This document shows, piece after piece, positions 49,704 through 59,644 of a stretch of 64,000 nt of DNA (positions within the stretch are counted from its first letter, which is position 1; each line of letters starts with the position of its first letter). Origin of the DNA: Candidatus Manganitrophus morganii. Its GTDB lineage: Bacteria > Nitrospirota > Nitrospiria > SBBL01 > Manganitrophaceae. The DNA lies in assembly GCA_021651055.1 (NCBI GenBank), contig JAJHOH010000001.1, forward strand, positions 1,116,001 to 1,180,000, written 5' to 3'. Under the pieces are notes generated by a model. The model was not told the DNA's origin, searched no databases, and saw only the letters and a list, made by a program, of their open reading frames with translations. The position numbers and the translations under genes are program-made.

Positions 49704-50663
49704 ATGCTGCTCGAAGTCAAAAGACTTAAAAAATATTTCCCGATCTACAAGGGGGGATTGTTCAAACGGCAGGAAGGGGTTCACCCCGCCGTGGATGGGG
49801 TCGATTTGGTCCTCCGGAAAGGGGAAACCGTCGGCCTGGTCGGCGAAAGCGGCTCGGGCAAGAGCACGCTGGCCCGATCGATCCTCCGTCTGATCGAGCC
49901 GACCGCGGGAGAAGTCTACTTCAACGGGACAAATCTCTTGACCCTCCCGAAGGAAGAGATGCGCCGGATGCGGCAGAAACTCCAGATCATTTTCCAAGAT
50001 CCCTACGCCTCCCTCAATCCGAGGATGACCATCTTGGACATCGTCGCGGAACCGCTCGACATCCACTTCTCCATTTCACGGGAGGAGCGGCGGGAGCGGG
50101 TGTCGTCGATCCTCCAAAGGGTCGGGCTCGGGCCCTCCATTTTAAACCGCTACCCCCATGAATTCTCAGGGGGGCAGCGGCAGCGGATCGGGATCGCGCG
50201 GGCGATGATCCTCCACCCCGAGCTGGTGGTCGCGGATGAGCCGGTCTCCGCCCTCGACGTCTCGGTCCAGGCGCAGGTGATGGAGCTGCTCGCCGACCTT
50301 CAGGAGACCTTCGGCCTCTCTTATCTCTTCATCGCGCACGATCTCTCTTTGGTGGAGAGTTTCGCCGACCGGACCGCCGTCATGTATCTGGGGATCATCG
50401 TGGAGCTGGCCCCGAGCGAGGTCCTCTACAAACATCCCCTGCACCCTTACACCCGGGAGCTGCTCTCGGCCGTCCCGGTCCCCGATCCCCGCCTTCGGAA
50501 GAAACAAGAGCGGCCCGGCGCGCCGGGGACCCCCTTCAAATCCTATTGCGATCACCGCCAGGACGAATCGCCCCGATTGATTGAAGCGGGGCCGGAGCAT
50601 TTTGTCGCGTGCCATCTAAGGACCGCCGAGATGAATCGGCGGTCGAGAGAGGGACTTCATTGA
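49704..50663 (+). CDS. Oligopeptide/dipeptide ABC transporter ATPase, OppF/DppF-like
   Basis: 319 residues. It begins [18 protein letters not shown]. Walker A is [14 protein letters not shown]-loop [19 protein letters not shown], signature [15 protein letters not shown], Walker [14 protein letters not shown], then [11 protein letters not shown]. The oligopeptide C-terminal domain is present, with [21 protein letters not shown] and [15 protein letters not shown]. It pairs with the OppD-like ATPase upstream. The TGA overlaps the ATG of the next gene (TGATG), linking it to the sigma-54 activator. Confidence 0.93.
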
Positions 50664-51640
50664 TGATAGAAGAAAAGAACGATCGAATGGAAGGAGCATT
50701 ATCCATGAAAGAGATCATCGGTAAAAGCGAGCCGATGATGGAAGTCTTCAAGATGATCCGGCTCGCCGCGGAAACCGATCTCTCCGTCATGATCATCGGA
50801 GAGAGCGGCACGGGGAAAGAATTGGCCGCGCGCGCCATTCACAATGCCAGCATCCGCCGAAAGGGCCCCTTTATTCCGGTGAATATCGGCGCGTTGACCC
50901 CCGATCTTGTCTCAAACGAGCTCTTCGGCCACGAGCGGGGGGCCTTCACCGGAGCGCATGCGCAGACCTCGGGCGCTTTCGAGCGCGCCGACGGCGGGAC
51001 CCTCTTCCTCGATGAGATCGGGACGATGGATCAGAAAACGCAGGTCACCCTGCTGCGGGCGATCGAAGACAAAGCGTTCTACCGGGTGGGAGGAAAAGAT
51101 CTGATCCACGTCGAAGTCCGGATTCTCTGCGCCACGAACGAAGATCTACAAGCGGCCGTTCAGAAAGAGACCTTCCGAAAGGACCTCTACTTCCGTCTGG
51201 AGGGGTTCATCATCCGCCTGCCGTCGCTCCAAGAACGGAAGGAAGATATCCCGCTCCTGGCCCGGGAGTTCCTGCGCGAGTACAACGAGAAGTATAAAAA
51301 AAGTATTACCGAGTTTTCTACGGAGGCGCTCGACCTCTTCGTCAATTATCCCTGGCCGGGAAATGTCCGCGAGCTGAAGAACGTCATCCAGCGCGCGGTG
51401 TTGCTGACCCCCCGAAACGTCATCATTCCCGAGTACCTTCCCCGGCGTTTCCAGTTAAAGAGCGTTCCCAACAATAAAATCGTCTTCGACGTGGGGACCT
51501 CTCTCGGAGACGCGGAGAAGACCCTCATCATCCGCACGCTGAAAGACCGGAAGGGGAACAAAACGGCGACGGCGAAGATTCTCGGGATCAGCCGCAGGTC
51601 GCTTTATAATAAGATCCAGCAGTTGAATATCAAAGTCTGA
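50663..51640 (+). CDS. Receiver-less sigma-54 activator (PspF/ZraR-core type)
   Basis: 325 residues from ATG 50663. Only about 35 N-terminal residues precede the AAA+ domain, so there is no receiver or sensor domain. Walker A is [13 protein letters not shown], the sigma-54 loop is RGAFTGAHAQTSGAFE, Walker B GGTLFLDEIGTMD, and the domain ends NYPWPGNVRELKNVIQ. A Fis-type helix-turn-helix closes it (NKTATAKILGISRRSLYNKIQQL). Lacking a control domain, it may be constitutive or controlled by a partner protein. A sigma-54 promoter stands 180 bp downstream, before the pseudo-receiver and respiratory genes. Confidence 0.95.
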   Translation: MIEEKNDRMEGALSMKEIIGKSEPMMEVFKMIRLAAETDLSVMIIGESGTGKELAARAIHNASIRRKGPFIPVNIGALTPDLVSNELFGHERGAFTGAHAQTSGAFERADGGTLFLDEIGTMDQKTQVTLLRAIEDKAFYRVGGKDLIHVEVRILCATNEDLQAAVQKETFRKDLYFRLEGFIIRLPSLQERKEDIPLLAREFLREYNEKYKKSITEFSTEALDLFVNYPWPGNVRELKNVIQRAVLLTPRNVIIPEYLPRRFQLKSVPNNKIVFDVGTSLGDAEKTLIIRTLKDRKGNKTATAKILGISRRSLYNKIQQLNIKV

Positions 51641-51817
51641 GACCTTCTCCGCTCTGAAACACCCTTCTCATTTTCATGCGTAAATTCTACACCATCCTTC
51701 TGCATGGAAAGCGGGGATGAGCAGTTATTTCACGACTCGTTCAAAAGGATCATCCTTCTTACCTTCGTTTATCTTTCCGCTCCCCTTAAAATAGATCGGA
51801 AACCCCTCTGCCGGAAG

Positions 51818-51834
51818 GGGTACGGATATTGCTT
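51818..51834 (+). promoter_or_regulatory. Sigma-54 promoter before the pseudo-receiver/respiratory operon
   Basis: GGGTACGGATATTGCTT keeps the GG-N10-GC spacing (GG 51819-51820, GC 51831-51832) and the TTGCT -12 box. The -24 box differs from TGGCACG at two bases. The start would be near 51844, 28 bases before the ATG. Confidence 0.65.
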
Positions 51835-51871
51835 TTCCACAATCCCAATAGATTATTTGAGGAGAGGGGCC

Positions 51872-52246
51872 ATGCATCAAAAAAATCTGATGGTGTTGGA
51901 TCAGGGTTACGACGGGTTCGACCGGTTCACCTATCTCGGCGCAACCTATAATATCGTGCTTATTCACGAGGCGGCGGACGCCCTCTCTTTCATCAAGAGA
52001 CTTCCGGTCGATGTCGTTCTTTTGAAAGATCAGATGTCGGGGATGGACGCCCTGGAGTTTTTGATGAATCTGCAAGACCTTCGGCCGTCGGCGACGGCGG
52101 TGGTCCTCTGCAGAGAGCGCGTCCCCCTCGCCTTTCCGGAGATGCCGAACGTCTGCTTTTTAAAAGAGCCGATCAGCAGCGGTGAGCTCTATCAGTTCCT
52201 GACGGAATTGGAATCCTCTCCCCGACATTCGCAGCGCACCCATTAA
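51872..52246 (+). CDS. Pseudo-receiver domain protein
   Basis: 124 residues from ATG 51872, with GAGGAGAGGGG upstream. The CheY-like pattern is clear: MVLDQGYDG at the first strand, DVVLLKDQMSGMDALEFL at strand 3, VCFLKEPISSGELYQFL at the end. The phosphoacceptor position carries Lys (VLLK) instead of Asp, and only one acidic residue remains in the first-strand pocket, so phosphorylation is unlikely. The terminal KEP is kept. It is the first gene behind the sigma-54 promoter and lies 33 bp before the CydA-like gene. Confidence 0.85.
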   Translation: MHQKNLMVLDQGYDGFDRFTYLGATYNIVLIHEAADALSFIKRLPVDVVLLKDQMSGMDALEFLMNLQDLRPSATAVVLCRERVPLAFPEMPNVCFLKEPISSGELYQFLTELESSPRHSQRTH

Positions 52247-52279
52247 ACGGCGCGGGCGGCGCGGCAAGGAAGAAGCGCA

Positions 52280-53503
52280 ATGCCTGAAAGTGACCTTCTC
52301 CTTCCTCCGATTCAGTTCCCGATCCTCGGCAACAGCGGGGCGGTCGGATTATTCAGTCTGCTCCATATCGCCCTGGCCGGTCTCACGGCGGGGTTTATCG
52401 TCCTGGCTCCGGCGCTGGAATACCTCGGGATCAAAGACCCCTTCTACACCCGGCTCGGCCGGTCGCTGGTCCGGTTTGTCGCGGTGGTCTTTAGTGTCAG
52501 CGCCGTCTTCGCCGTCATTATGGTCGAGCTGTTCATCGGGCTTTTTCCGGTGTCGACGGTCTATATTTTTCAACGGTTCAAACCCGCCGTCTATATCGCG
52601 ATCGGCGTATTTCTGCTTCACATCTGGTTTTTCTATACCTATTGGTATCGATGGGAAAAAACAAGGGCCAAAAGCATCCGGCGGCATATCGCACTCGGCG
52701 CCGCCGCCGCCGTGTTGATTCTGATGTGGGGCGCGCTCCTCGACGGCATCGGCTCTTCGATGTTGACGCCGGGCGAGGGGGACATGGGGGGCCCGGGGAG
52801 ATCGGATTTTATCCGGCTCACCTTTCTGACGAACCCGACCTGGGCGCCGTTGGTGCTCCATCGATTTCTCGGCGTCCTGATCATTTCCTTCTATGCGATC
52901 GCCCTGTACGGCGGCTTGCAGCTGCTCTGGAGAAAACCCAAAGGGGAAGAAGAGGCCTATTATACGCGGGTCATGCACTTGGGGATGGTGATCGGAACCG
53001 GTCTGCTCCTGATTCAGCCGATCGCGGGGATGCTCTATTCGTTTCAGATCGGGCGGGCCAATCCGCGGGCCTACGAGCGGATTCTCTTCGAGCTGGAGTG
53101 GCTGCTGCGGATCCAGTTTCTCTTGATCGGACTTCTTTTCTACTTGAGCAACCAATTTTTTGCCCAGATCTCCTCCCATCCCCGGCGCTCCCGCGTTCTG
53201 ATCGGAGCGCTCCTTCTGGCGGCTTTCTTCATGGTCCTCGCCGCGCAGCAGGTCTGGATCCGGCGGGGGCTGACCCTGGTTCTGATTCTGATGACCTTCT
53301 ATCACCTCCGCCACGTTCCCCTCCGGGAAACGCCGCCGCACCCCCGGGGAGCGTGGCTGGCAATCTCGGTCGGCTTTTGCGCCGTGGCGACTTTTCTGGT
53401 GATGGGGGTGATTCGGGAGCAGGCCCGGCGGCCGTATACGGTGTATGGAGAGATCCATCTTGAAGATGAAAAACAACCGGCATCGGAGCTCGCACAACGA
53501 TGA
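52280..53503 (+). CDS. CydA-like membrane haem protein (cytochrome bd-like subunit I), divergent
   Basis: 407 residues with about nine membrane helices. His29 (FSLLHIALAG) sits where CydA has its first haem ligand, and His194 (LVLHRFLGV) where CydA has the second. The segment GVIREQARRPYTVYG parallels the E-x-GRQPW motif of CydA. The long quinol (Q) loop of canonical CydA is missing. No CxxCH motif is present, so no c-type haem. It shares the final MG-x2-RE-x-AR-x-PY-x2-YG pattern with the protein at 55187. It overlaps the Rieske gene by 4 bases (ATGA). Confidence 0.75.
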   Translation: MPESDLLLPPIQFPILGNSGAVGLFSLLHIALAGLTAGFIVLAPALEYLGIKDPFYTRLGRSLVRFVAVVFSVSAVFAVIMVELFIGLFPVSTVYIFQRFKPAVYIAIGVFLLHIWFFYTYWYRWEKTRAKSIRRHIALGAAAAVLILMWGALLDGIGSSMLTPGEGDMGGPGRSDFIRLTFLTNPTWAPLVLHRFLGVLIISFYAIALYGGLQLLWRKPKGEEEAYYTRVMHLGMVIGTGLLLIQPIAGMLYSFQIGRANPRAYERILFELEWLLRIQFLLIGLLFYLSNQFFAQISSHPRRSRVLIGALLLAAFFMVLAAQQVWIRRGLTLVLILMTFYHLRHVPLRETPPHPRGAWLAISVGFCAVATFLVMGVIREQARRPYTVYGEIHLEDEKQPASELAQR

Positions 53504-54045
53504 ATCAGACAACGGAAGAGCCGATCGGACGGCGGCATTTCATGGAACGGGCAATCCTGGGCATCTTCGGCGCTTTGGGCCTGATGCTCTCGGCGCCGAT
53601 CATCGGCTACATCCTCTCGCCGATTTTCCGCGTCCGGGAAGACCTCGCCCAATCGACGCGGTGGGCGCCGATCGCCTCCCTGGCGGAAATGGAGTCGATC
53701 GGAGATCTCCCCCGGATGTTTCAGGTCCCCTATTTTGTGAAAGAGGGATGGCGGACGCGGGAGACCTCGCGGCCGCTCTTCGCGGTGAAGAAAGGAGGAA
53801 AATTGGTCCTCTTCTCCTCTTTTTGCACCCATCTCGGCTGCCCGACCGGCTGGGACGAGGCGAAGCGGATGATTATCTGCCCCTGCCACGGCGGACTCTA
53901 CAACAACTTCGGGGAGGTGATCGGCGGCCCCCCGCCCCGGAACCTGGCGGAGCTTGAATACAAGGTGGAGAACGGGCTGGTCTATCTGAAAGACCCGGCG
54001 AACGTTTACGAAGTCGGATGGAAAGATCCGAGGAAGCAGGTGTGA
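53500..54045 (+). CDS. Rieske [2Fe-2S] protein of a bc/b6f-type complex
   Basis: 181 residues. An N-terminal twin-arginine motif (IGRRHFMERAIL) precedes one membrane helix (about 18-41), the usual Tat-dependent build. The cluster motifs are Cys109-Thr-His111-Leu-Gly-Cys114 and Cys127-Pro-Cys129-His130; Cys109, His111, Cys127 and His130 would bind the iron-sulfur centre. It takes electrons from quinol at the cytochrome b Qo site. It is translationally coupled to the CydA-like gene and is followed 7 bp later by cytochrome b. Confidence 0.95.
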   Translation: MNQTTEEPIGRRHFMERAILGIFGALGLMLSAPIIGYILSPIFRVREDLAQSTRWAPIASLAEMESIGDLPRMFQVPYFVKEGWRTRETSRPLFAVKKGGKLVLFSSFCTHLGCPTGWDEAKRMIICPCHGGLYNNFGEVIGGPPPRNLAELEYKVENGLVYLKDPANVYEVGWKDPRKQV

Positions 54046-54052
54046 GTTGCGG

Positions 54053-55168
54053 ATGAGACAATCGCTCCGGGATTGGTTCGACGAGCGGGTGGGGCTCGAT
54101 ATTTTCGAGCGGATGCTTCAGAAGCCGCTCCCGAAGCGGGGGGCCTGGTTTTATACGCTCGGGAGCGCCACCTTGTCTTTGATCACGATTCAGTTCGTCA
54201 CCGGCGCCTTCTTGATGTTCTACTACGTCCCCGACGGGGAATACGCCGAGCAGTCGATCCGGTACATCACGGAGCAGGTGAGCTACGGCTGGTATCTGCG
54301 GAGCATGCACCGATGGTCGGCGAACCTTCTCTTCATCGTGATCGGACTTCACATGTTCCGCGTCTTCGTGAGCGGCGCGTTCAAGCGGCCGCGGGAGATG
54401 ACATGGGTGATCGGGGCGTTGATCTTTTTGACGGTGATCGGCATCGGCTTGACCGGCGGGCTTTTGCCGTGGGACGACAACGCCCATTGGATCGGAACGG
54501 TCTTCGGGAACACCCTCTCCTACTTTCCCCTGGTCGGCCCCTTTCTTCGCAGCGCGCTCCTGGGGGGAGAACATGTCGGCACCCTCACGCTGACCCGGTT
54601 CTACGCCCTGCACGTTTGGGTTCTCCCGCTGGTCCTCGGAATTTTGATTACATTGCACCTCTACCTGATCCGGAAACACGGCCTCTTCGGGTCGGTCATC
54701 GAGTACCGCGATCAGATCGCGGCGCTGACGGCGAAGGGGGTCCCGCGGGAATCGATCATCGTGACGAAAATGACCCCCGACGAGACGGAGCCTTTTTATC
54801 CCGCCCAGGTTTTCCGGGACTCGATCGTCGCCTTCGGCCTGATCACCGCCGTTTCGCTTTTTTCGATTCTCTTCCCCTTCTCCCCTTACCGGGGCGAGGA
54901 GCCGCCGCCGACCGAGATCATTCCCCGGCCGGAGTGGTTTTTCTGGTCGGTGGACGAGTGGCTGATGTTCTTTCCGGGGCGGTTGATCCCGATCGGGCTG
55001 ATTCTCGTCACCCTCTTTTTTCTTTTTCTCCCCCTCGTTCCCTTTGTCGAGCGCCACCCGGAGGTCAGCCCCATCCGAAGGCCGGTCCCGACGATCATCG
55101 GAACGTGGGTCTATCTTTTTATCATCGTCCTCGCCCTGATGGCGGGGGCGCGGATTTTTAATTACTGA
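54053..55168 (+). CDS. Cytochrome b, full-length b6/subunit-IV-like fusion
   Basis: 371 residues from ATG 54053; a TTG at 54047 is also in frame. Haem ligands are His86 and His100 in helix 2 and His187 and His202 in helix 4. The spacings (13 and 14 intervening residues) follow the cytochrome b6 type. The Qo motif reads Pro293-Glu-Trp-Phe296 instead of PEWY. There is no cysteine anywhere, so no covalent c-type haem as in cytochrome b6. The C-terminal half supplies the subunit IV helices. It passes electrons from quinol to the Rieske centre and low-potential haems. Confidence 0.93.
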   Translation: MRQSLRDWFDERVGLDIFERMLQKPLPKRGAWFYTLGSATLSLITIQFVTGAFLMFYYVPDGEYAEQSIRYITEQVSYGWYLRSMHRWSANLLFIVIGLHMFRVFVSGAFKRPREMTWVIGALIFLTVIGIGLTGGLLPWDDNAHWIGTVFGNTLSYFPLVGPFLRSALLGGEHVGTLTLTRFYALHVWVLPLVLGILITLHLYLIRKHGLFGSVIEYRDQIAALTAKGVPRESIIVTKMTPDETEPFYPAQVFRDSIVAFGLITAVSLFSILFPFSPYRGEEPPPTEIIPRPEWFFWSVDEWLMFFPGRLIPIGLILVTLFFLFLPLVPFVERHPEVSPIRRPVPTIIGTWVYLFIIVLALMAGARIFNY

Positions 55169-55186
55169 CGCAACAGGAGGATCGCG

Positions 55187-56539
55187 ATGGAGGAGTCGTT
55201 GCTCGTAAGCCGATGGGCGATCGCGGTCACCGCGTCGCTTCACTCCCTCTTCGCCACCTTCATCGTCGGGGGGATGCTCTTGGGCGCCACGGCCGAATCG
55301 GTCGGGGTGCTCACCCGCGAGCCGCGCTACGAGCGGCTCTCCCATTCGATTGCCCGCACTCTGGTATTGATGAGCGCGACGGTGGCGTTTTTGGGGGTGG
55401 TCCTCGTTTTCTTGCTGACGATCCTCTGGCCGGCCTTCTGGACCCTTCTTTTTCGGATCATGTTCTGGCCGCTGATCTTCGAAGCATCGATGTTCTTGGG
55501 GGAGGCCGCCTGTCTCTATCCCTGGTATTACAGCTGGGGAAAGTGGCCGCGAAAAACCCATCTTTTTATCGCCTGGCTGGGGGCGACCTTCGGGGTGATC
55601 GCGATGGTGATGATCGACATCGTCGGCTCTTTCCTGCTGACCCCCGGCCCGGTCGAGCCGTTTCTCAAACGGGCCATCAACCCGACGATGGTCCAACTGA
55701 CCCTTCATCGCTTCGCCGGAAATCTGTCGTGGTTCGGCTTCGGCATCGCCGCGCTTTCGGCCATCCGTTATTTGCGGACGAAAGATCCGGAGGAGCGGGC
55801 CTATCATGAATGGGTCGGCGCCTTTTCGGTGATTGTCGGGTTCGGATTTCTTCTTCTGATGCCGATCATCGGGTTTTCCTATTTGAAAGCGGTCCGCTTC
55901 GCCTCCGAGGGGGCGTTCAGCCGGCTGATGCTCGGCGAGAAATCGTGGATCTTCGTTCTCCAGGTCCTCTTGATCAACGTTCTCTTTATCGCCGGAACCT
56001 GGTACATGTTCCGGATGGCCTATTTTCGATACAAAGAAAACCCCCATTTCAAGCGGTACCGGCTGATCACCTTCATCGTGATGGGAATCGCGGCGATCGT
56101 TTTCGTGATGCCCTACCAGGTGCGCTACATCCCCTTCGCCGAGTATTTCACCTCGGCCGAGGTGAATCCCCTGGGAAAGATGCAACCGCATAAATACATT
56201 GCGATGGGGGTCCTAATCGGATTGGGAATCCTCAACTACGGCTTTTATCTCAGCGCCCTGCGCTTCAAGTCGGAGTGGGGAGGAGGAGGCCGTTTCCCCC
56301 AAGCGCTTCTGATCGTCCTCGGACTCTTTACGATCTTCTCGATGATCAACATGGGTTATGCCCGGGAGAACGCGCGATATCCCTATCTGATCTACGGCAA
56401 AATGACGATGGAAGATGAAAGAGAGATCGGCTTGGGAGGGGGCCGTTCGATGCGCGAAGCTCTCGACCGTCAAAGAAAGAGCCCCGACGATCGGAATGAT
56501 CCGAACCCTCGGGGCTCTGAAGAAATGAGGAGACGCTGA
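55187..56539 (+). CDS. CydA-like membrane haem protein (cytochrome bd-like subunit I)
   Basis: 450 residues with about nine to ten membrane helices and a CAGGAGG ribosome site. His19 (TASLHSLFATF) matches the first haem ligand of CydA exactly in position, His174 (LTLHRFAGN) the second. Glu99 in PLIFEASMFLGEA aligns with a conserved helix-3 Glu of CydA. GYARENARYPYLIYG replaces the GRQPW block. The Q loop is absent. There is no CydB partner in the window. The stop codon abuts the stop of the convergent exported-protein gene without a gap. Confidence 0.82.
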   Translation: MEESLLVSRWAIAVTASLHSLFATFIVGGMLLGATAESVGVLTREPRYERLSHSIARTLVLMSATVAFLGVVLVFLLTILWPAFWTLLFRIMFWPLIFEASMFLGEAACLYPWYYSWGKWPRKTHLFIAWLGATFGVIAMVMIDIVGSFLLTPGPVEPFLKRAINPTMVQLTLHRFAGNLSWFGFGIAALSAIRYLRTKDPEERAYHEWVGAFSVIVGFGFLLLMPIIGFSYLKAVRFASEGAFSRLMLGEKSWIFVLQVLLINVLFIAGTWYMFRMAYFRYKENPHFKRYRLITFIVMGIAAIVFVMPYQVRYIPFAEYFTSAEVNPLGKMQPHKYIAMGVLIGLGILNYGFYLSALRFKSEWGGGGRFPQALLIVLGLFTIFSMINMGYARENARYPYLIYGKMTMEDEREIGLGGGRSMREALDRQRKSPDDRNDPNPRGSEEMRRR

Positions 56540-56992
56540 TTACCCGGCCGGCGGCTCCATCGGTCCCCCTTCCTCTTGCGGGGTCACCTCGACCGCGTTG
56601 AGGACCACGACCAGGTCGATCTGGTCCCCTTCTTCGATTTGATCCAGCTGGCCTCTCGCCCCTTCCTCGACGGTAAAGATATTCACCATCCCTTCCGGGG
56701 TCCGAACGGCAATCAATCCGGTCACCGGATCGATATCGAGCACTTCTCCCGAAACCGTTCCTCTCGTCGGGGTCATCGGCGTTCCGCCGGGGGCCATCCC
56801 TTCCTCAGATTCCATTCCCGGCTGCTCCGACTCCATCCCCGGATCGGGCTGTTGTTGATTCAAATCACGCCCCGGTTGACCCTGCTGCTCATCCGGCTGC
56901 GCCATTTGCGCAACGGTCGGAATCGGCCCCGTCGGAGCGAAGAGACCGATCATCATCAATCCAAGTAGCGCTAAAAACATTTTTTTCATCAT
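56540..56992 (-). CDS. Small exported protein, SGEV paralog 1
   Basis: 150 residues from ATG 56992 (AAGGAGAG upstream). A signal peptide (MMKKMFLALLGLMMIGLFAP) is followed by a Gln/Pro/Glu-rich low-complexity stretch. The small beta domain reads TVSGEVLDIDPVTGLIAVRTPEG and FTVEEGARGQLDQIEEGDQIDLVV. It is clearly paralogous to the next gene (57105). This OB-like strand pattern occurs in periplasmic DUF proteins; function unknown. Confidence 0.75.
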   Translation of the reverse strand: MMKKMFLALLGLMMIGLFAPTGPIPTVAQMAQPDEQQGQPGRDLNQQQPDPGMESEQPGMESEEGMAPGGTPMTPTRGTVSGEVLDIDPVTGLIAVRTPEGMVNIFTVEEGARGQLDQIEEGDQIDLVVVLNAVEVTPQEEGGPMEPPAG

Positions 56993-57017
56993 CCATCTCT
57001 CCTTATCGATCACTGCA

Positions 57018-57053
57018 AACCCCGGGGCCGCGTTACCGCGGGCCGCCGGGGTT
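57018..57053 (-). terminator. Hairpin between the exported paralogs
   Basis: AACCCCGG (57018-57025) and CCGGGGTT (57046-57053) are perfect inverted arms with GC-rich inner pairing (CCGCG/CGCGG-type). On the minus strand it follows the stop of the 57105 gene by about 50 bases and is trailed by TTTGC. Confidence 0.5.
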
Positions 57054-57104
57054 CGTTCAAAAAGATCATGCGCGTCGCCGATGATCGGAAAACAGCGACA
57101 CTGA

Positions 57105-57527
57105 TTATCGGGTCATCGGCGGCTGTTCCATCGATCCGCCTTGTGTTCCTTGTTGGGGGGTCGCGCGAAGGGTCATCACCAGATCGACCTGATCTCCTTT
57201 TTTGATCTGATTGAGCTGGCTTTTCGCCCCTTCCTCGACCGTGAATCGGTTGGTCACCCCTTCCTCCGTTTTAATCTCAATCGTCCCGGTCTGTTGATTG
57301 ATACTGACGACCTCGCCGGAGAGTTTTCCCTCCGTGAGGGTCACCCCGCCGCCACCGGGAGCCGCCCCTCTTCCCTCTTCAAATTCCGGATCGGACGGTT
57401 GCTGTTGATTGAGATCCCGCTCCGATTGTTGCGGATCGGGTTGCGTCATTTGCCCATGAGACACGATCGGTCCCATGACGAGCATTCCTATCAATAATCC
57501 AAATAGGACGAAAAATCCTTTTTTCAT
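57105..57527 (-). CDS. Small exported protein, SGEV paralog 2
   Basis: 140 residues from ATG 57527, placed 7 bases after GGGAGG; a GTG one codon earlier is too close. The signal peptide is followed by a Gln-rich stretch (SERDLNQQQ, also found in paralog 1 as GRDLNQQQ), then KLSGEVVSINQQTGTIEIKTEEG and FTVEEGAKSQLNQIKKGDQVDLVM. The duplication is old: the C-terminal domains match well but the middles differ. Function unknown. Confidence 0.75.
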   Translation of the reverse strand: MKKGFFVLFGLLIGMLVMGPIVSHGQMTQPDPQQSERDLNQQQPSDPEFEEGRGAAPGGGGVTLTEGKLSGEVVSINQQTGTIEIKTEEGVTNRFTVEEGAKSQLNQIKKGDQVDLVMTLRATPQQGTQGGSMEQPPMTR

Positions 57528-57593
57528 CACAATACCTCCCTTACTTACAAGTAAAAAACCCGAACGGCCTTTCCTACCGACCGACGGGTCCGG

Positions 57594-57929
57594 CTAAAAC
57601 AGTCGATACGGTTCGCTTTCTTGACGATCGGTCCGGGTCTGGCCTTGATTTCTGATCGGCGCGATCATTTCCGTCCGCAGACCGATAGGGGCCACCTCTT
57701 CCGAGAGCGTCCTCCCCTCTTGTCCAACAACCGGTTGACGCTCCGAAACGCTCCCGCGCTGCCGGGTCGCTCCGATCGCGCTTCGGCTCTCCTTCTGACC
57801 TTGCTGACCTTGCTTCTCTTGCTGCGCGTGCTGGACGTGAGCCAAGGCGGTAAGCGCCATGACCAAAAAGAAAGTGATGGCAAATAAAGTCCCAAAAGCG
57901 GGGAGATATTTCTTGATCATCCTCAACAT
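57594..57929 (-). CDS. Small exported protein of unknown function
   Basis: 111 residues from ATG 57929 (GGAG 8 bases before). One hydrophobic helix (FGTLFAITFFLVMALTALAH, about 12-31) may be a signal peptide or anchor. The rest is Gln/Arg-rich and without recognisable motif (EKQGQQGQKESRS). A sigma-54-like promoter lies about 95-110 bases upstream on the same strand. Confidence 0.55.
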   Translation of the reverse strand: MLRMIKKYLPAFGTLFAITFFLVMALTALAHVQHAQQEKQGQQGQKESRSAIGATRQRGSVSERQPVVGQEGRTLSEEVAPIGLRTEMIAPIRNQGQTRTDRQESEPYRLF

Positions 57930-58275: not shown

Positions 58276-58292
58276 CTGGTACAAATATTGCT
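58276..58292 (+). promoter_or_regulatory. Sigma-54 promoter before the BON/GAPDH operon
   Basis: CTGGTACAAATATTGCT has the GG-N10-GC spacing (GG 58278-58279, GC 58290-58291) and a perfect TTGCT. TGGTAC differs from TGGCAC at one base. The BON ATG lies about 90 bases downstream. Confidence 0.7.
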
Positions 58293-58379: not shown

Positions 58380-58646
58380 ATGACACTGAAGAAAGAAGGG
58401 CTCCTCTCGACACACGATCAGGAGATTCGCGCGCGCATCTTAAACAGCCTGAAGCGCAGCGCCGTGATCGAATTCCCTCCCGACCTTCGGATCGTTGTCT
58501 CCGCCGGGGTGGTCCGTCTGGAAGGGTCTGTCCTCCTGCTCGCCGAAAAAGCGATGATCGAAGACACCGTCCGTTTTACCGAAGGGGTGTTGGCGGTCGA
58601 GAACGCGCTTCGGATCGTCCCCTGCTCCGCAAGGAGGGCTGCATGA
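58380..58646 (+). CDS. Small BON-domain-like protein
   Basis: 88 residues. DQEIRARILNSLKRS, then IVVSAGVVRLEGSVLLLAEKAMIEDTVRFTEGVLAVENAL follow the BON pattern (alpha-beta-beta-alpha-beta with a central Gly and V.L.G.V strand), described here in pieces. There is no signal peptide, so it is cytoplasmic. BON domains bind lipid or small ligands in other proteins. Its TGA overlaps the GAPDH ATG (ATGA). Confidence 0.75.
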   Translation: MTLKKEGLLSTHDQEIRARILNSLKRSAVIEFPPDLRIVVSAGVVRLEGSVLLLAEKAMIEDTVRFTEGVLAVENALRIVPCSARRAA

Positions 58647-59644
58647 GACGAATTGCAATCAACGGATTCGGCCGGATCGGCCGCGCCTTTTTGAGAATCG
58701 CCCTTCAAAGGGAGGATAACGATTTGGAGGTCGTCGCCGTGAACGACATCTCCGATCCGGAGAGCCTTGCCTACGCGTTTAAATACGATTCGGTTCACGG
58801 AAAATGGAAACATCCCTTCGAGGTGGAGCGGAACCATTTTGTCGCGGATGGGAAGAAAATTGCCGTGCTCAGCGAGGCCGATCCCTCCCGGCTTCCCTGG
58901 AAAGAGTGGGACGTGGAAGGGGTGGTTGAATGCTCCGGGAAATTTACGAACCGAGAGGGGGCCTTGAAACATCTGCAAGCCGGCGCGCGGAAGGTGCTTG
59001 TTTCCGCCCCCGCCCGCGACGCCGATCTGACGATCACAATGGGGGTCAACGAGGATCGCTACGACCCCCGGCGCCATCACATCGTGTCGAACGCCTCCTG
59101 CACGACCAACTGCATCGCCCCCGTCGCCAAGGTGCTCAACGACGCCTTTACGATCGAACATGCCCTGATGAACACGGTCCATGCCTATACTTCTTCCCAG
59201 GTACTCCTCGACCGCCCGAAGAAAAAAGACAAACGAAGAGGCCGGGCCGCGGCCCTTTCCCTCATCCCGACCACCACCGGCGCGGCGATCGCGGCGACCC
59301 AGGCCCTTCCGGAGCTGGCGGGGAAAATCAACGGGATGGCGATTCGCGCCCCGATCCCGGACGTTTCGATCCTCGATCTGGTCGCCCAGACGCGGGAGCC
59401 GGTCGATGTGGAGAAGATCGTCGGGGCCTTCCGGAAGGCGGAGCAGAACCCCCGCCTCGCCCCGATTTTGCAAGTTTCCGAAGAGGAACTGGTCTCGATC
59501 GACTACATCGGCTCCCCCTACTCCGCCGTGATCGACGCGCCGTCGACGATGGTCGTCGGCGAGCACCTGCTCCGGGTCCTGGCCTGGTACGACAACGAAT
59601 GGGGCTTCTCGAACCGTCTTGTCGATGTGACGAAACTTTTATAG
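58643..59644 (+). CDS. gap: Type I glyceraldehyde-3-phosphate dehydrogenase
   Basis: 333 residues. The Rossmann start is INGFGRIGRAFLR. The catalytic Cys153 is in SNASCTTNCIAP, and the base His lies in the following helix region. HAYTSSQVLLD, LIPTTTGAA and WYDNEWGFSNRLVDV are family signatures. It interconverts glyceraldehyde-3-phosphate and 1,3-bisphosphoglycerate. Loop RPKKKDKRRGRAAA is more basic than in the E. coli enzyme. Coupling to a BON gene and a sigma-54 promoter is unusual for a glycolytic gene; it may be a second, condition-specific copy. Confidence 0.95.
   Translation: MRRIAINGFGRIGRAFLRIALQREDNDLEVVAVNDISDPESLAYAFKYDSVHGKWKHPFEVERNHFVADGKKIAVLSEADPSRLPWKEWDVEGVVECSGKFTNREGALKHLQAGARKVLVSAPARDADLTITMGVNEDRYDPRRHHIVSNASCTTNCIAPVAKVLNDAFTIEHALMNTVHAYTSSQVLLDRPKKKDKRRGRAAALSLIPTTTGAAIAATQALPELAGKINGMAIRAPIPDVSILDLVAQTREPVDVEKIVGAFRKAEQNPRLAPILQVSEEELVSIDYIGSPYSAVIDAPSTMVVGEHLLRVLAWYDNEWGFSNRLVDVTKLL

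Follow-up and report, generated by a model that had tools for sequence, protein, structure and literature searches.

On balance, we favour the reading that five adjacent genes of Candidatus Manganitrophus morganii encode a hybrid terminal quinol:oxygen oxidoreductase free of cytochrome c, in which a Rieske/cytochrome b pair would feed two CydA-like proteins. The operon would be expressed from a sigma-54 promoter under an adjacent activator, with a pseudo-receiver encoded by its first gene as a regulatory partner. We infer the formation of a complex, the direction and route of the electrons, oxygen as the acceptor and the regulatory wiring from the lines of evidence set out below.

Gene content and layout of the cluster

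The stretch of DNA analysed, referred to here as the window, comprises the 64 kb between bases 1116001 and 1180000 of the single-contig, 4.29 Mb genome of Candidatus Manganitrophus morganii (GCA_021651055.1, JAJHOH010000001.1). All five operon genes were found as open reading frames where the original prediction had placed them, with domains assigned by Pfam, profile, fold or alignment (Table 1), and the ORF coordinates also bear out the spacing between them: 33 bp, an ATGA overlap, 7 bp, then 18 bp. The mechanical ORF of the pseudo-receiver opens at 51704, but likeness to its relatives begins at the ATG at 51872. Among named records the nearest is GAC4 (Candidatus Manganitrophus sp.), in which CydA-like 1 is 95% identical and which was the single locus returned when genome contigs were searched with this protein; a plasmid collection gave no match.

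Neither a c-type cytochrome nor CydB had been predicted here, and both absences were borne out. The CxxCH motif is absent from the six proteins encoded by the activator gene and the operon and from every reading frame of at least 100 codons in the 64 kb window, a scan that likewise returned no cytochrome c1 or f subunit, and none of the operon ORFs matches CydB in Pfam or NCBIfam. Convergent with the operon are genes for two related small secreted proteins, Q- and P-rich, which have a common C-terminal part and no Pfam match; a relative of these is still present in another genome of the genus, G183 (L052:9255-9758).

Table 1. Features of the cluster and its surroundings, in window coordinates.
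Feature	Position	Strand	Evidence or remark
Receiver-less sigma-54 activator	50609..51640	+	PF00158 1e-64, PF02954 3e-12
Conserved block TGCGTAAATTCT	51677-51688	+	Invariant in 5 genomes
Conserved block AGTTATTTCACGA	51723-51735	+	Invariant in 5 genomes
-24/-12 sigma-54-type promoter GGGTACGGATATTGCT	51818..51833	+	GGTA[C/T]GGATATTGCTT in 5/5 genomes
Pseudo-receiver, 124 aa	51872..52246	+	Weak receiver match in Pfam (5e-4, below cut-off); alignment
CydA-like 1 (CydA' partner)	52280..53503	+	Profile match, fold model, residues
Rieske iron-sulfur protein	53500..54045	+	PF00355 2e-9
Cytochrome b, full length	54053..55168	+	PF00033 7e-49
CydA-like 2 (putative catalytic CydA)	55187..56539	+	Pfam CydA 4e-22
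Two small secreted proteins	56540-57530	-	
Small ORF	57594-57929		
Sigma-54-like site AGGCACTTTTCTTGCT	58038-58023	-	93 bp before the small ORF
Second -24/-12 copy TGGTACAAATATTGCT	58277-58292	+	Conserved in four other genus genomes
BON-domain ORF	58380-58646	+	
gapA	58643-59644	+	

Two CydA paralogues without a quinol loop

The prediction of two divergent CydA-like proteins stands insofar as both models have the CydA fold when compared with E. coli bd-II (CydA-like 1: Z 31.6, 332 residues, rmsd 3.1; CydA-like 2: Z 29.1, 318 residues, rmsd 3.5). The two are not, however, independent oddities; they form an old paralogous pair of the CydAA' type and are full-length paralogues of each other (hhalign, 403 columns). 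As a single sequence, CydA-like 1 has no Pfam CydA match, while its profile matches bd oxidase 5doq (1e-8). When this protein was compared with two sequences from E. coli in hhalign, no match was confident, and its residue mapping is based on the G. thermodenitrificans profile match together with the fold.

By this mapping, CydA-like 1 retains H29, H194 and E380, equivalent to E. coli H19, H186 and E445, and both active-site glutamates are gone, with A107 and H114 in their places. H19, E99, E106 and H174 of CydA-like 2 correspond to E. coli H19, E99, E107 and H186, and its E394, in an RExAR motif, falls in the region of E. coli E445 and GRQPW (assigned by motif); all five residues are invariant in 20 homologues. 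With TM7 aligned by eye, the position of the haem b558 methionine (M393) is taken by an invariant Q279 in CydA-like 1, and by Q259 in CydA-like 2, whose homologues have Q or V. Since this methionine is found in neither protein, the haem at which electrons enter is uncertain.

The quinol site of classical bd enzymes is the loop between TM6 and TM7 (the Q-loop), which in E. coli is well over 100 residues long. This loop measures only ∼13 residues in the model of CydA-like 1 and ∼30 in that of CydA-like 2, so the canonical Q-loop is missing from both, and electrons would therefore have to arrive otherwise, most simply via the Rieske protein. Taken together, the pair is most naturally read as a heterodimer of the CydAA' type in which one subunit is catalytic and the other degenerate, and which would have no canonical quinol site. 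The operon thus differs from a quinol-oxidising cytochrome bd (qOR), which has the Q-loop site, the M393 ligand of b558 and CydB, in being without all three.

A sister pair behind alternative complex III

The same genome carries a second CydA pair at C1:1048.9-1051.5 kb, directly behind ActA, ActB1, ActB2, ActC, ActD and ActE, the genes of alternative complex III (ACIII); with the Act genes, the whole cluster spans 1048.9-1057.4 kb. At 15 further loci from the class, those with the best matches to CydA-like 1 and including one from the genus (in G183), the pair again lies behind Act genes, as far as the retrieved DNA extends. Because Act genes are directly upstream of every sampled pair of the ACIII type, the CydA pair is always found beside a quinol oxidiser. 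There are no ACIII genes directly upstream of the window pair, where Rieske/cytochrome b is present instead.

In the tree, CydA-like 1 of the window is sister to the ACIII-linked CydA 1, and CydA-like 2 to the ACIII-linked CydA 2 (supports 97-100). As the sister groups match, the CydA duplication predates the split of the two kinds of pair, and the two CydA proteins have moved as a unit while their quinol-oxidising partner differs. A CydAA' oxidase named OR-N5 comes after ACIII in Nitrospirales (PMC12342949), and the OR-N5 label used for the pair here is taken from that description rather than from reference OR-N5 sequences. The OR-N5 locus and the window share the same CydA paralogue pair (∼41-45% identical), in the same order and with an adjacent quinol-oxidising module; the front end of the former is ACIII with haem c subunits, whereas that of the latter is Rieske/cytochrome b, placed between the pair. 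A gene for a short-chain dehydrogenase adjoins an ACIII-linked CydA pair at L048:4789-5907.

Rieske protein, cytochrome b and the case for two enzymes

The Rieske protein has an N-terminal twin-arginine anchor, the ligands C109, H111, C127 and H130, and a C114/C129 disulfide. Cytochrome b carries all four haem histidines (88, 102, 189 and 204, numbered from the TTG at 54047) and a PEWF Qo motif, and has no cysteine and no cytochrome c domain. The Rieske ligands, the haem histidines and a full-length cytochrome b with a Qo motif are shared with the cytochrome b6f and bc1 complexes, from which the window set differs in being without cytochrome c1 or f, without the haem cn cysteine, and in reading PEWF, not PEWY. 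The window cytochrome b forms a deep branch of its own in the tree, and on this ground a descent of the Rieske/cytochrome b pair from the fused cytochrome b/c type, or from the pair flanked by CydA genes in Nitrospirota, was rejected.

A Rieske/cytochrome b pair between two CydA-like genes is a common layout in Nitrospirota, normally including cytochrome c genes. In families f5, f6 and f10, which account for most of the other loci inspected, the arrangement is cyt c - CydA-like - cyt c - Rieske - cytochrome b - CydA-like - cyt c; in family f12, a second CydA-like gene was not seen. This f5/f6/f10 type is the CIII_1 locus with bd-like_1 and bd-like_2 of Nitrospira, for which a complex III/IV supercomplex has been proposed (PMC6606698). 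Its core order, CydA-like - Rieske - cytochrome b - CydA-like, is that of the window, but its CydA proteins belong to other branches (25-31% identical), its cytochrome b falls in another clade, its Rieske protein is 310-320 aa long where that of the window is short, and cytochrome c genes lie in and around the cluster.

Such loci, together with the proposal that OR-N enzymes use cytochrome c as oxidases (PMC10839748), lend some weight to an alternative in which the window encodes two separable enzymes, with Rieske/cytochrome b reducing a c-type cytochrome, either soluble or membrane-bound, encoded elsewhere and the CydAA' oxidase drawing its electrons from that cytochrome. A c-type shuttle could serve, because many c-type cytochromes are encoded elsewhere in the genome and the similar Nitrospirota loci include them. 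We nevertheless regard this arrangement as rather unlikely, given that neither the operon nor the long frames of the 64 kb window encode a c-type cytochrome, and given the tight or overlapping genes, with Rieske/cytochrome b lying between the CydA-like genes in a layout kept across the genus.

Conservation within the genus and loss in one species

Six genomes of the genus were sampled, namely the window genome (G000), G183, G398, G399, G400 and G401 (the GAC4 record). Four of them (G000, G398, G400 and G401) carry the activator, pseudo-receiver, CydA-like 1, Rieske, cytochrome b and CydA-like 2 genes as a co-linear set; in G399 the contig begins within the pseudo-receiver and the activator sits on a separate contig. 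The comparison of gene order in related genomes that had been suggested with the original prediction therefore upheld a compact cluster of co-occurring genes, with the five-gene order kept in five of the six genomes. The gap between the pseudo-receiver and CydA-like 1 widens to at least 175 bp in relatives (∼175 bp in G400), a point against the favoured reading. Among intact copies the five proteins are 74-99% identical, and dN/dS across the genus is 0.06-0.20 for the operon and 0.10-0.18 for the pseudo-receiver. The conserved order and these ratios rule out a chance run of membrane ORFs. Among the genomes searched, the window-type CydA-like 1, pseudo-receiver and cytochrome b were found in this genus only.

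CydA-like 1, the Rieske protein and CydA-like 2 are split into overlapping frames in GAC4 (L062 / CP114561). These breaks are probably assembly indels, and were taken as such because the activator and pseudo-receiver are intact; gene decay was not adopted as a reading, the assembly looking indel-rich (completeness 86%).

The sixth genome, G183, is 99% complete. Its activator (94%) and pseudo-receiver (66-68%) are still there, as is the core of the promoter, while all that is left of CydA-like 1 is a frame-broken remnant of ∼214 residues. The other three oxidase genes (Rieske, cytochrome b and CydA-like 2) are missing, and the downstream secreted-protein and gapA genes come next on the same contig. 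In this species the regulatory head has outlived the oxidase, at least temporarily, and the loss of the oxidase genes means that the Rieske/cytochrome b/CydA-like complex is dispensable. The ACIII-linked CydA pair is intact in G183. A short ORF encoding one helix lies between its pseudo-receiver and the CydA-like 1 remnant (L052:8290-8450).

The regulatory head

The gene before the promoter does encode a sigma-54 activator without a receiver, as had been predicted: it comprises an AAA+ domain and a Fis-type HTH only, in PspF-like order, with Walker A at residue 64 and GAFTGA at residue 111. An orthologue is present in all six genus genomes (93-100% identity) and, within the order, is restricted to the genus, the next best homologues reaching at most 49%. 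The genome also contains rpoN.

The consensus score of GGGTACGGATATTGCT is ordinary, and was rejected as evidence by itself since there are seven sites of equal score in the 64 kb. The predicted sigma-54-type promoter instead draws its support from being kept in five genomes amid diverged sequence, and from its 15-base core GGTAYNNATATTGCT, which occurs three times in the 4.29 Mb genome, each time before a gene, and not once in a reversed control. Three blocks of the intergenic region are conserved in the five genomes, the -24/-12 element being one of them; a run of 13 invariant columns such as is seen here was reached in none of 20000 column shuffles. The region 51677..51735, which holds TGCGTAAATTCT and AGTTATTTCACGA, may contain the binding sites of the activator. 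The second -24/-12 copy, TGGTACAAATATTGCT, precedes the BON-domain ORF that overlaps gapA, and the third GGTAYNNATATTGCT copy (L122 / G000:C1:2691194-2691208, -) lies before a short-chain dehydrogenase gene. Counterparts of the separate sigma-54-like site AGGCACTTTTCTTGCT occur in the other genomes of the genus.

The pseudo-receiver is present as one copy in each of the six genomes. Across all aligned sequences from the genus, the position of the phospho-aspartate holds K (R in one species) and that of the conserved lysine holds E, and the second D of the acidic pocket is Q, in keeping with the claim that this domain cannot be phosphorylated in the normal way. The usual charge pair is reversed, and we would guess that this either locks the domain or lets it bind the activator. 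A literature search for pseudo-receivers linked with sigma-54 found nothing.

Proposed function and remaining alternatives

In the hybrid oxidoreductase that we favour, the Rieske/cytochrome b pair would oxidise quinol at the Qo site in a Q-cycle type split, the Rieske centre taking one electron while the other crosses cytochrome b. From the Rieske head the electron would go on to a haem of the CydA/CydA' heterodimer close to the periplasmic face, with neither cytochrome c1 or f nor a locus-encoded c-type shuttle in between, and oxygen would be reduced in the heterodimer, with CydA-like 2 as the catalytic subunit and CydA-like 1 as its degenerate partner. The complex would be a relative of the OR-N5 CydAA' oxidase with a different front end. 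A hybrid that connects quinol with bd-like haems independently of cytochrome c had been proposed, and is plausible in light of the CydA folds, the missing Q-loop and the absence of CxxCH. Expression would proceed from the sigma-54 promoter under the adjacent receiver-less activator, and the pseudo-receiver would most likely work as a protein partner that needs no phosphorylation, perhaps in a feedback on the activator.

More tentatively, these elements may combine in a single complex, a Q-cycle quinol oxidase without c-type haem in which the Rieske protein donates directly to a bd-type haem and the CydAA' core accepts a swappable front end, either ACIII or Rieske/cytochrome b, with the charge-reversed pseudo-receiver controlling the receiver-less sigma-54 activator. 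If true, Rieske-to-bd transfer would replace cytochrome c and a heme-copper oxidase, and Q-cycle coupling would be combined with a bd-like oxygen site in one respiratory complex. The occurrence of one CydAA' core with two quinol oxidisers that are unrelated to each other allows the modular evolution of respiratory chains to be tested directly, and bears on energy conservation in manganese-oxidising autotrophs with several redundant oxidases.

The original prediction had also allowed for a complex run backwards to reduce quinone. The relatives oxidise Mn(II) and, as autotrophs, depend on reverse electron flow (PMC9040806), and high-potential electrons derived from Mn(II) oxidation could in principle enter the bd-like haems and pass via Rieske/cytochrome b to quinone, feeding reverse electron transport. 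No positive evidence for this was obtained, and we consider it improbable: the locus is without a periplasmic electron-entry protein, CydA-like 2 shows no variation in its oxygen-site residues although a device working only in reverse would not need them, and ACIII, behind which the related CydAA' pair is encoded, oxidises quinol. Very unlikely, lastly, is an enzyme for protection or detoxification that would scavenge oxygen, nitric oxide or peroxide under stress rather than form a main respiratory branch; this would suit the same promoter type before the BON-domain and short-chain dehydrogenase genes and the loss of the oxidase genes in G183, but leaves the Q-cycle front end unexplained.

Relation to earlier reports

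Related gene sets in Nitrospirota had been anticipated, and beyond the similar layout in Nitrospira (PMC6606698) the window set fits TO_3, one of two bd-like complexes (TO_3 and TO_4) recorded as including components akin to complex III or ACIII and as confined to the freshwater Manganitrophus genus (PMC9040806). Matched by the description of its gene set, the window cluster is probably TO_3, with which it shares bd-like proteins, complex III-like components and a restriction to the freshwater genus; the ACIII-linked sister cluster fits TO_4. For TO_3 that paper cites Yu and Leadbetter, and its main text does not discuss the regulation of TO_3 ('sigma' and 'regulat' are absent). The gene set is therefore not new, having already been reported as TO_3. 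Measured against the papers open to searching, the present analysis adds that related CydAA' pairs stand with different front ends, maps the key residues of both proteins, and describes the regulatory head as well as the natural loss of the oxidase genes. Elsewhere in the genome, a cluster at L049 (G000:C1:3318000-3336000) that matches TO_2 (PMC9040806) contains two MrpD-like subunits, many c-type cytochromes, a Rieske/cytochrome b set and a CydA-like protein of 800 aa that carries a cytochrome c motif.
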